Shown in pieces: positions 57,639-59,281 of a stretch of DNA of 64,000 bases. The translations under genes were made by a program, and so were the position numbers. Each line of letters begins with the position of its first letter. Position 1 is the first letter of the stretch. The notes beneath the pieces were generated by a model. That model ran no database searches. It was not told where the DNA came from and was given only the letters and a program-made list of their open reading frames with translations. Source of the stretch: Desulfuromonadales bacterium (GTDB taxonomy: Bacteria > Desulfobacterota > Desulfuromonadia > Desulfuromonadales > BM103); assembly GCA_014860225.1 (NCBI GenBank), contig JACZKE010000052.1, positions 62,001-126,000 on the forward strand. Direction: 5' to 3'.

Positions 57639-57765
57639 GTGCTAAAATCTCCATAGTCACCTTCTTTATACTATTAGAACTGGACAAGGAGAGTCCTCTC
57701 CGATCTGCAGGGAAAACCCTTCCGGCCAGGAAACTTTTTTGAATTGCATCATAGAGTGCACCCAG

Positions 57766-57805
57766 AAAAGAAAAAGGCCTCGCAGTCGGTAGATTGCGAG
57801 GCCTT
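57766..57805 (-). terminator. Terminator of tRNA-Phe
   Basis: On the minus strand AAGGCCTCGCA, loop, TGCGAGGCCTT and then a T-rich tail. It starts about 9 nt past the CCA end and can also stop the response-regulator transcript. Confidence 0.88.
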
Positions 57806-57813
57806 ACATCTTG

Positions 57814-57889
<76 letters not shown>

Positions 57890-57900
57890 AAGGAAAGGGA

Positions 57901-57929
57901 TTTGTAACGAAAAGCGCGGTTTATGTCAA
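57901..57929 (-). promoter_or_regulatory. Promoter of tRNA-Phe
   Basis: On the minus strand TTGACA, a 17-bp spacer and TACAAA, with the start expected about five bases before the mature tRNA 5' end. A near-consensus layout. Confidence 0.75.
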
Positions 57930-58020
57930 GGAAAAAGCGGCGGCTGATTCTTTGCTTGCTTTCCGCGGTGCTTTTTGTTACCAAGAAGCACTATAACATT
58001 ATTGTCAAGGTGGCATCGTA

Positions 58021-58107
58021 ATGAAATATCAAGGTTGGTTGTTTGCAGATTATTACTTTTGGTCCGGCAGCTTTTTTTGCTTGCCTGACCGGGGTGCAGT
58101 CTGTTGA
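58021..58107 (+). CDS. Aromatic-rich leader peptide of aroF (28 aa)
   Basis: ATG 58021 has AAGGTGG seven bases upstream and the frame stops at TGA 58105-58107. The 28 residues begin MKYQGWLFADYYFWSGSFF: three Tyr, two Trp and four Phe, nearly a third aromatic, including a run of four (YYFW). This is the pattern of ribosome-stalling leader peptides (compare pheL and trpL). A terminator follows 25 nt later and aroF, the first enzyme of aromatic synthesis, comes next. A TATAAC (57992-57997) may be the -10 box. It is too short for ordinary ORF calling. Expression is inferred, not shown. Confidence 0.8.
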   Translation: MKYQGWLFADYYFWSGSFFCLPDRGAVC

Positions 58108-58132
58108 CGAGCAACTGTCGATAGAACTACTG

Positions 58133-58172
58133 AAACCACGGGCGGGCTCAATCGGGGCGCCTGTGGTTTTTT
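58133..58172 (+). terminator. Attenuator terminator A in the aroF leader
   Basis: AAACCACGGGCG pairs with CGCCTGTGGTTT over 12 bp (one G-U), loop of 13, and six T from 58167. Strong intrinsic terminator, placed where an attenuator would be. Confidence 0.85.
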
Positions 58173-58178
58173 CGTTTC

Positions 58179-58247
58179 GGGAAAGTAAACGATGAAGGCC
58201 GCCGGGCAAGTCCTGCCGGCCTTCATCTTTTTAACGTGAACTTTCCC
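58179..58247 (+). terminator. Second stem-loop B with outer clamp, just before aroF
   Basis: GATGAAGGCCG (58191-58201) pairs with CGGCCTTCATC (58217-58227) and is followed by five T. An outer stem GGGAAAGT (58179-58186) with ACTTTCCC (58240-58247) would enclose it and end three bases before the AGAGGAG ribosome binding site. Could be a second terminator or a translation-control structure. Confidence 0.75.
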
Positions 58248-58261
58248 AAGAGGAGACGAAC

Positions 58262-59281
58262 ATGATTATCGTTATGCGAAAAGGGGCCAGCAAGGACAAT
58301 CTGGCAGAAGTCAAAAAACGCATCAAGGAGCTGGGTTACCAGCCACACGTCATCCATGGCGAGACACGCAATGTGATTGGGGCCGTTGGTGATGAGCGTG
58401 GCAAAGACATTCTGCAGTCGATTGAATCGATGCCGGGCGTGGAAAATGTAGTGCCGATTCTCAAGCCGTACAAGCTGGCAAGCAAAGAGGTCAAGCCAGA
58501 GCCGACCACAGTCGAAATCGTTCCCGGGGTGACGGTTGGCGGTGACACCCTGACAGTGATGGCCGGTCCCTGTTCGGTCGAGAGCGAGGCGCAGATTCTT
58601 GAAACAGCGCGCGCTGTTAAGGCGGCCGGAGCGACGGTTCTGCGGGGGGGAGCCTTCAAGCCGCGTACCAGCCCCTATTCTTTCCAGGGGATGGAAGAGG
58701 ACGGTCTTAAGCTGCTGGCCCTGGCCCGGGAGGCTACCGGCCTGCCGATCGTCACTGAAGTCGTCAATCCCCGTGATGTCGAACTGGTTGCCAAGTATGC
58801 AGACATCATGCAGGTGGGAGCGCGAAATATACAGAACTTTGCCCTGCTCAAGATGCTCGGACAAATCGACAAACCGGTGCTCCTCAAACGTGGTATGGCG
58901 ACGACCATCCAGGAACTTCTGATGAGCGCCGAGTATATCCTTTCAGAAGGCAACCGCCGGGTTATACTCTGTGAACGCGGCATTCGCACTTTTGAGACAG
59001 CAACCCGCAACACCCTTGATATCTCGGCAATCCCGGTTCTGCGCGAGCAGACCCACCTGCCGATCATCATCGATCCCTCTCATGCGACCGGCCACGCTTC
59101 GCTGGTACCGAGTATGTGTTATGCCTCGGTGGCTGCCGGTTGCGATGGCCTGATCGTTGAGGTGCATCCAAGCCCGGAAACGGCAGCGAGTGATGGTCCG
59201 CAGTCATTGCGCCCGGCGGAATTCCAGATAATGATGTTGAAACTGGCGGAATTTGCAAAGGTGGTCGGTAAGAAACTTTGA
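58262..59281 (+). CDS. aroF: 3-deoxy-7-phosphoheptulonate synthase (type I-beta)
   Basis: Condenses phosphoenolpyruvate with erythrose-4-phosphate, the first step of the shikimate pathway. 339 residues. An N-terminal ferredoxin-like regulatory domain (about 1-70, [20 protein letters not shown]) comes before the barrel, as in Thermotoga-type enzymes where it gives aromatic feedback. [38 protein letters not shown] and [11 protein letters not shown] are conserved. GAGGAG lies before the ATG. Both leader attenuation and the regulatory domain point to control by aromatic amino acids. Confidence 0.96.

Follow-up and report, generated by a model that had tools for sequence, protein, structure and literature searches.

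The aroF gene of a Desulfuromonadales bacterium, which encodes 3-deoxy-7-phosphoheptulonate (DAHP) synthase, is very probably controlled by a ribosome-mediated transcription attenuator with two terminators in series. The gene lies in the 64,000-nucleotide stretch of DNA that was analysed here (the window), and is preceded by a short reading frame rich in aromatic codons and by two terminator-like hairpins, A and B. That aroF has a ribosome-mediated attenuator of some kind can be said with still greater confidence. Comparison and computation support the reading through three lines of evidence, namely: the conservation of the leader; complementarity that tracks the species in the pairings 3:4, 2:3 and 4:5; and the fold obtained for each ribosome position. 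We infer that the leader is translated, that A and B terminate transcription and that each of the three aromatic amino acids is sensed.

In the proposed mechanism, RNA polymerase would make the leader RNA with a translating ribosome trailing behind. When the tRNAs for Phe, Tyr and Trp are amply charged, the ribosome would reach the leader stop codon, segments 1 and 2 would pair, terminator A (3:4) would form and transcription would stop; a polymerase escaping A would be halted by terminator B (5:6). If any of the three tRNAs is uncharged, the ribosome would stall at the Tyr-Tyr-Phe-Trp (YYFW) run and mask segment 1, so that segments 2 and 3 would pair and preclude terminator A. Segment 4, being freed, would then pair with segment 5 (the loop and 5′ side of B), B would be blocked and aroF would be transcribed.

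At the entry step of aromatic synthesis, many bacteria use several feedback-sensitive isoenzymes. The DAHP synthase step supplies three end products, and a single RNA could here sense the supply of each. Coupled in this way, the two terminators would amount to a two-stage off switch on one sensor, a natural double lock. The class includes Geobacter-type bacteria (L081 is recorded as Geobacter sp.), and laboratory species should be among them.

The leader region in the window and in relatives

The window's host is a member of the Desulfuromonadales, and its nearest named relatives are Desulfuromonas and Desulfuromonadales MAGs. The features of the locus are listed in Table 1.

Table 1. Predicted features of the aroF leader region, with positions in the window
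Feature	Position	Strand	Basis
Shine-Dalgarno-like AAGGTGG of the leader ORF	58007-58013	+	sequence; GGTGGC/GGTGG-like motif at the matching site in close relatives
Leader peptide ORF, putative sensor, 28 codons; YYFW is codons 11-14 (58051-58062)	58021-58107	+	sequence; aromatic leaders in relatives
Segment 1, 5′ arm of the anti-antiterminator (1:2)	58061-58071	+	minimum-energy fold; helix kept in relatives, little covariation
Segment 2, partner of segment 1 (OFF, 58079-58090) or of segment 3 (ON, 58083-58099)	58079-58099	+	pairing tests and folding
Hairpin over the leader stop codon, inside 2:3 in the window's ON fold	58100-58125	+	window folding
Segment 3, the 5′ side of A (3:4); alternatively joins segment 2 in the antiterminator (2:3)	58130-58149	+	pairing tests and folding
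Segment 4, 3′ arm of terminator A and T6; if free, pairs with segment 5 (ON helix to 58178)	58153-58172	+	permutation tests and folding
Terminator A (3:4); stem 58132-58149/58154-58170, T-run 58167-58172	58132-58172	+	folding, complementarity, relatives' columns
Segment 5, comprising an A-rich stretch with the 5′ arm and loop of B; pairs with segment 4 when ON	58185-58211	+	permutation tests and folding
Terminator B (5:6); stem 58191-58206/58212-58227, T5 58228-58232	58191-58232	+	folding; relatives
Outer stem round B, ending just 5′ of the aroF Shine-Dalgarno	58179-58186 with 58240-58247	+	folding, complementarity
aroF, DAHP synthase, regulated gene	58262-59281	+	Pfam DAHP_synth_1 and DAHP synthase ferredoxin-like domain; NCBIfam 3-deoxy-7-phosphoheptulonate synthase

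The leader ORF translates as MKYQGWLFADYYFWSGSFFCLPDRGAVC, with three Tyr, two Trp and four Phe codons. A preliminary description of this DNA had reported a 28-codon leader with a ribosome binding site and nine aromatic residues, four of them consecutive, and this is confirmed. It had also placed a terminator 25 nt past the leader and then aroF. The core stem of terminator A (58133-58144/58158-58169; 12 positions, 92% complementary) does begin 25 nt past the leader stop codon, its T6 lying partly within the stem, and the gene that follows is aroF by Pfam and NCBIfam.

The RNA of 58000-58262 is far more stable than its shuffles (z -6.6, 0/200). Among the 628 ORFs of 20-60 aa in the six frames of the window, only the leader attains 9 aromatic residues in 28, and two ORFs hold four consecutive aromatics. 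Under a Markov null built on the local sequence, at least nine aromatics in 28 have P = 0.0026, and four in a row have P = 0.0075. The conservation of the leader before aroF in relatives is a stronger test than these chance statistics.

No sigma-70 consensus promoter was found at 57700-58400. In an Rfam scan of the window, no family but tRNA reached its gathering score, and the T-box and amino acid leader families were unmatched. The long 5′ region, with hairpins that are strong and conserved, might be taken to indicate another RNA-level device, i.e. a T-box, another known leader family or a protein-binding RNA; the Rfam result argues against this, as does the fact that the ribosome-position model (see below) accounts for the location of the aromatic run, and we hold such a device to be highly improbable. 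Nothing in Rfam, which alone was searched, pointed to a Rho, protein or T-box mechanism.

A divergent tRNA-Phe (GAA) gene (57814-57889, minus strand) adjoins the leader. Such a gene is also present in 23 of the 32 relatives' loci scanned, nearly always just upstream of the leader and on the opposite strand; in L064 it lies farther away. This arrangement could reflect a functional link or plain synteny.

Regions upstream of aroF were taken from 58 genomes searched as relatives (30 loci kept) and from 80 named loci, and aromatic leader and terminator occur at the matching place. In most Desulfuromonadales loci with enough sequence, the leader ends about 135-190 nt 5′ of aroF; the spacers of L018 and L043 are longer, that of L076 is much longer, and L008/L035 are cut at the contig end. 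In loci from other families of the class, the leader stands directly before aroF in 20 of 20. The core of the relatives' leaders is [F/Y]-F-W-x-G. For alignment, 66 sequences were reduced to 56 at 93% similarity, with L076, L113 and the Syntrophales loci L102, L104, L105, L108, L109, L111 and L114 excluded; codon-by-codon counts refer to these 56 minus L030. The core position is Trp in 51 of the 55 leaders, and the codon preceding it is Phe in 53, both Phe codons being used (TTT 42, TTC 11). Codons -6 to +3 hold Phe in 55 leaders, Trp in 53, Tyr in 42 and all three in 41.

At E <= 0.01, a covariance model gave matches in 110 of the 118 genomes sampled from the order and in 143 of the 146 sampled from the class. 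The two samples overlap, and those matches that are weakest (E 0.001-0.01) could be to something other than this element. The window's genome gave one strong match, at aroF (8.7e-23), the next being partial with E 0.0126. The second DAHP synthase that is closest in sequence (L002) has no such leader upstream, and none of the eight second covariance matches in the same order (L231-L238) has a convincing aromatic leader. Nor was a convincing leader found among the aroF relatives of Nitrospinota and Clostridia, a 14-codon ORF at -404 in L113 being judged unconvincing. Genome G142 carries two near-identical leader-aroF copies on two contigs (L173 and L174). L066, recorded as a Chloroflexi MAG, has an aroF and leader of Desulfuromusa type, and its contig is probably mis-binned.

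Alternative pairings and the position of the ribosome

Segment 2, which lies just past the aromatic run (consensus GGCCGTCTGCCCGGGG; GCTTGCCTGACCGGGG in the window), is complementary to the 5′ arm of terminator A. Over 56 sequences, the cognate 2:3 duplex has a mean of -21.4 kcal/mol vs. -18.8 kcal/mol with permuted partners (0/10000). In 36 sequences, 96.5% of 288 cells in the 2:3 columns are paired, four of the eight pairs have changed on both sides, and 0/500 shuffles reach the covariation score, while in slid registers 25-53% of cells are paired. No 2:3 covariation excess was seen in a group of 20 close relatives (155/500 shuffles), which says little on covariation because it is almost invariant. 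Outside the class the cognate pairing is again better (0/5000 permutations, 36 loci). Judged by sequence comparison, a predicted antiterminator that excludes terminator A is present across the Desulfuromonadales and covaries.

The stem of terminator A is paired in 87.4% of 396 cells, with 28 doubly changed cells. Both the doubly changed cells and the score are above shuffles; the count of doubly changed pairs is not (233/500). Helix 1:2 forms in the window fold and is conserved in 100% of 80 cells and 79.3% of 179 cells in two sets, with slight or absent covariation in relatives. A conserved helix across the leader stop codon was also considered and was rejected, as 60.6% of 188 cells are paired in 36 relatives and 89/500 shuffles do as well.

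In the window, the supported antiterminator is 58083-58099 with 58130-58147. The preliminary description had instead suggested a pairing of TGGTT at 58036-58040 with AACCA at 58134-58138, which appears in 0 of 6 minimum-energy structures (three ribosome states, two RNA lengths). Its broader reading of the region as an attenuator holds: leader, terminator and mutually exclusive fold are all kept in relatives.

Folding was modelled on nascent RNA, with the nucleotides under the ribosome blocked and the RNA ending before the 3′ arm of A. With the core codon in the ribosomal A site, the antiterminator has P > 0.5 in 56 of 56 sequences, the register of L030 being wrong. The window is unambiguous, as the antiterminator there has a P of 1.00 with the ribosome at the core codon, 0.04 with the ribosome at the stop codon and 0.00 without a ribosome. 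The antiterminator is still seen in 20 of the 56 sequences with the ribosome at the stop codon and in 27 of the 56 without a ribosome, and the outcome in many relatives is thus less sharp than in the window.

When the ribosome was moved codon by codon along the 55 leaders, the antiterminator was possible at -6 to +3 in 89-100% of them, at +4 in 56%, at +5 in 15% and at +7 to +12 in none. The aromatic codons extend as far as +5, and there the permissive ribosome positions come to an end too. For the window, the permissive stretch is D10-Y-Y-F-W-S-G-S-F18 (DYYFWSGSF; P 0.81-1.00), with 0.19 at F19 and an isolated 0.63 at Q4. Since the permissive positions match the aromatic run, codons for Tyr, Phe and Trp appear to be placed where a stall would count. 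L010 shows a weak response at its Phe and Trp codons. In silico, on nascent RNA, the position of the ribosome over the sensor codons is thus predicted to decide the fold in the class.

The preliminary description had proposed that one switch could read every end product. Tyr, Phe and Trp codons are indeed in control position; their presence is not in itself a response, since the aroR leader of Corynebacterium glutamicum indicates that holding a codon is no proof of response to its amino acid. That leader, before aroF, reads Phe-Tyr-Phe, and Phe limitation mattered while Tyr limitation did not (Neshat 2014, as described in the accessible text of PMC11802643). It would thus favour an attenuator that senses chiefly phenylalanine, the Tyr and Trp codons being incidental or modulating, and so would the composition of codons -6 to +3 (F 47%, W 10% and Y 9% of residues in 55 leaders) and the tRNA-Phe gene beside the leader in the majority of scanned loci. 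However, the single core Trp codon is nearly always kept (51/55) although Trp is a rare residue, and the window has Y-Y-F-W in control position. We consider sensing of chiefly phenylalanine rather unlikely, and trivalent sensing of Phe, Tyr and Trp, in the strict sense, to be slightly favoured.

When the RNA is extended through the T-run of A, the antiterminator exceeds 0.5 in only 11 of the 56 stalled models and the terminator wins in 45. In the window with B complete, equilibrium favours A and B even with a stalled ribosome. Since equilibrium favours the terminators, the decision must be kinetic and fall during RNA synthesis, as in other attenuators, and the antiterminated fold would be attained kinetically.

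Hairpin B and its predicted pairing with segment 4

Hairpin B, a second terminator-like hairpin that is stronger than A, was absent from the preliminary description, as was its coupling to A. Because B lies downstream of A, a polymerase released from A must still pass B. Of 56 relatives, 51 have a hairpin of <= -14 kcal/mol in the interval from A to aroF, followed in 27 of them by at least four T within 8 nt; L027, L036, L053, L056, L059 and L067 either lack B or have an atypical one. In L036 and L053, where the typical B is lost, an outer stem similar to that of the window is still present by eye. The possibility that B is a genome-wide repeated terminator was ruled out, as the pattern GGCCGCCGGG-N(3-14)-CGGCC occurs only twice in the genome, once at the locus.

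Within the order, segment 4, the 3′ arm of A, is complementary to segment 5 in the loop of B and the upper part of its 5′ arm, so that freeing this arm of A should also block B. Over 53 sequences, which still included five mis-picked B hairpins, the cognate 4:5 pairing is at -13.4 vs. -10.6 kcal/mol for permuted partners (0/5000), and permutation within clades also gave 0/5000. By group, the counts are 0/5000 for group B (25 sequences) and 10/5000 for group C (20 sequences); the window's own group of eight near-identical sequences gave no signal (3451/5000). Controls over the 53 sequences are null (3x5 187, 4xB3′ 3087 and 3xB3′ 3677 of 5000), with 4xB3′ mildly low within clades (97/5000). On 20 divergent representatives, 4:5 and 2:3 each gave 0/5000, and the controls gave 1648 (3x5), 3031 (2x4), 1117 (2x5), 678 (4xB3′) and 1172 (4xB5′) per 5000. 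Tested against shuffled segment 5, segment 4 was in the best 5% in 27 of 48 cases (2 of 8 in the window's group), and the segment 3 control in 1 of 48.

An ungapped column test of 4:5, in which nine loci were skipped and L024 was mis-anchored, is weak (8/3000 over 10 pairs, 84/3000 within clades, 987/3000 for group B alone). Registers slid by -2 and -3 pair equally often in this test, and are uninformative because pyrimidine runs face purine runs. In the Geobacter-type set, 4:5 is suggestive only (79/5000 on 19 sequences; 355/5000 on 13 nonredundant ones).

Outside the class, segment 4 pairs with B's own 5′ arm, at -19.8 vs. -16.3 kcal/mol (0/5000 both on 25 loci and on 21 nonredundant ones). 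The controls gave 243 (3xB3′), 397 (4xB3′) and 4739 (3xB5′) per 5000. A strong second hairpin is present in 26 of the 36 outside-class loci, and none of <= -14 kcal/mol in 10. For the pairing test 28 of the 36 loci were given, eight with weak hairpins being omitted, and 25 yielded B, with doubtful picks in L201, L203 and L213. In L241 both arms deviate from the usual sequence yet still match each other. Because segment 4 here pairs with an arm that B needs, these loci provide the best evidence for 4:5 acting against B.

Folding of longer RNA, ending just before the 3′ arm of B, was computed for 47 of the 56 sequences, with L027, L036, L053, L030, L056, L059, L067, L074 and L079 left out. With the stalled ribosome, the mean P(2:3)/P(3:4)/P(4:5) is.76/.25/.76, compared to.07/.90/.10 with the ribosome at the stop codon and.14/.83/.17 without a ribosome. 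The corresponding values in the window are.90/.10/.91, 0/1/0 and 0/.86/.14. Since the stalled fold prefers 2:3 together with 4:5, the 4:5 helix would both block B and stabilise the antiterminated fold.

These results have to be weighed against a plain four-segment (trp-type) attenuator with 1:2, 2:3 and 3:4 only, in which B serves on its own as a back-up terminator or stabilises the mRNA as a 5′ structure, and the match of segment 4 to B is a by-product of repeated GC-rich arms. Such an arrangement would fit the absence of a typical B from the six relatives named above and of a strong downstream hairpin from 10 of the 36 outside-class elements, the likeness of the A and B arms outside the class, as after duplication, with its weak 3xB3′ signal, and the weak column test. 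However, 4:5 tracks its cognate partner in two separate sets, at 0/5000 in each, whereas the 3x5, 4xB3′ and 3xB3′ controls are null order-wide and much weaker outside the class; moreover, a back-up terminator that is never lifted would permanently throttle aroF. We therefore regard the trp-type arrangement as improbable and a relay through B as likely.

Related leaders across the phylum and known systems

At E <= 0.001, the covariance model matched 56 of 198 phylum-sampled genomes, 49 of them outside the class. At the 46 outside-class places that were read, out of 59, an aromatic leader is present in 36 and absent in 10. By tblastn, the genes behind the 36 leaders are aroF (23), ADH synthase (DhnA; 3), a PaaK-like ligase (4) and a Liv-type binding protein (5), with one unassigned; the PaaK-like ligases do not reach the curated cut-off for PaaK. 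Of the 23 outside-class aroF leaders, 17 contain Trp. The outside-class ribosome scan counts any upstream pairing of segment 3 and, in 11 of its 37 rows, shows no more than two closed codons; it is not used as evidence.

The switch octamer GTCTGCCC is present in exact form in 21 of 37 outside-class leaders and not in the other 16. It is read in frame 0 in 11 of its holders, in frame 1 in 3 and in frame 2 in 7, and its occurrence in all three frames indicates that the nucleotides are conserved and not the peptide. This bears on whether the small ORF encodes a functional small protein, with the hairpins merely ending an upstream transcript. The peptide sequence is conserved within the class, as a functional protein would be; against this stand the three frames of the octamer, the end of the aromatic run where the permissive ribosome positions stop, and the adjacent upstream tRNA-Phe gene on the opposite strand, and we give a functional small protein only a very slight chance.

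Phe-rich leaders (e.g. MDNRFFRFRFFGFFGGFFFRKSAHGRGR) precede PaaK-ACT-LivKHMGF in L203-L205. L206 has a Phe-rich leader and a PaaK-like ligase with a TPR ORF between, LivF lying beyond the fetched stretch. The ACT protein of these PaaK-like/Liv-type operons (L203-L206) is ACT_8. A leader ending in IGYYYYGYLRRSAL, with a YYYYGY run, stands before LivKHMGF-PaaK′ in L207 (595-692, plus strand) and L243 (8889-8986, minus strand), and the genomes of these two loci, G369 and G345, also carry a Phe-rich copy. L244-L246 have another Phe-rich leader, before a third Liv-type operon that closes with a PaaK-like ligase in L245 and L246. ADH synthase, an alternative shikimate entry, has an aromatic leader in L194, L198 and L224, and is followed by 3-dehydroquinate synthase II in L224. 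In L191 (minus-strand match, E 1.1e-8), the switch core occurs with a non-aromatic leader, MITSNKCMCNTSQPSAHGEVTGKIPL; the downstream ORF of 388 aa has no Pfam match, and to us it looks like a class II glutamine amidotransferase.

We tentatively propose a phylum-wide attenuator family on one RNA relay, in which the sensor peptide is re-coded for each gene and the leaders report supplies by transporter/ligase operons; the chances of this are somewhat short of even. The scheme of re-coding, put forward with the same reserve, would be Phe/Tyr/Trp for aroF and ADH synthase, Phe-rich for PaaK-ACT-LivKHMGF, YYYYGY for LivKHMGF-PaaK′ and Phe-rich for the third Liv-type operon. The re-coded operons may salvage phenylacetate and 4-hydroxyphenylacetate for Phe and Tyr. 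If true, this would be a use of these operons, in aromatic-acid uptake towards Phe/Tyr, that is not evident from annotation. Because the switch seems to be retained while the sensor codons vary, the leaders could yield substrate predictions for Liv-type transporters and PaaK-like ligases beyond those from homology.

The element was not found in the openly accessible literature on Geobacter, Deltaproteobacteria and Desulfovibrio attenuation, on PaaK leaders and on tandem terminators, which does not establish its absence from print. In the accessible text of a study of metal-reducing delta-proteobacteria (PMC545781), 'leader peptide' and 'arof' have 0 occurrences. Merino's database has putative attenuators near tyrA/aromatic supraoperons, and the aroA′-aroB′ supraoperon of Desulfovibrio vulgaris is discussed (PMC1173090). 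It differs in that it holds terminator/antiterminator predictions on tyrA operons, with 0 occurrences of 'leader' in the text as accessible.

Two described elements stand before DAHP synthase genes. The C. glutamicum aroR shares an aromatic leader before a DAHP synthase operon and ribosome-mediated attenuation; it differs in belonging to another phylum and in that no Trp is mentioned in the accessible part of its description (PMC11802643). The uORFC-13-1 motif shares a uORF and terminator before aroF and a proposed dependence on Phe incorporation, and comprises 24 sequences reported only from Acholeplasma and environmental sequences, as far as the accessible text goes (PMC8632094).

The statement in the preliminary description that classical attenuators sense one amino acid was too strong, as both the Phe-Tyr-Phe leader of AroR and that of E. 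coli ilvGMEDA illustrate. The latter has 15 branched-chain residues in 32 aa (PMC6123439, in its accessible part), and is likewise rich in several end products of a branched pathway; it differs in concerning branched-chain amino acids and in preceding the first gene of a multi-gene operon.

In fold logic, the element resembles the his attenuator of Salmonella and E. coli. There, termination folds A:B, C:D and E:F, and a stalled ribosome leads to B:C and D:E and hence to readthrough, according to the accessible portions of PMC4046918 and PMC10989985; here, 1:2, 3:4 and 5:6 stand against 2:3 and 4:5. The his leader has seven consecutive codons for one amino acid, His, whereas the control codons here are for Phe, Tyr and Trp. 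Furthermore, the his attenuator has a single terminator (E:F), whereas in the window 3:4 and 5:6 both carry U-runs, giving two stop signals in series. Taken together, the kind of attenuator is already known, and the trivalent leader, the double terminator and the re-coded family appear to be new as far as the searched literature goes.
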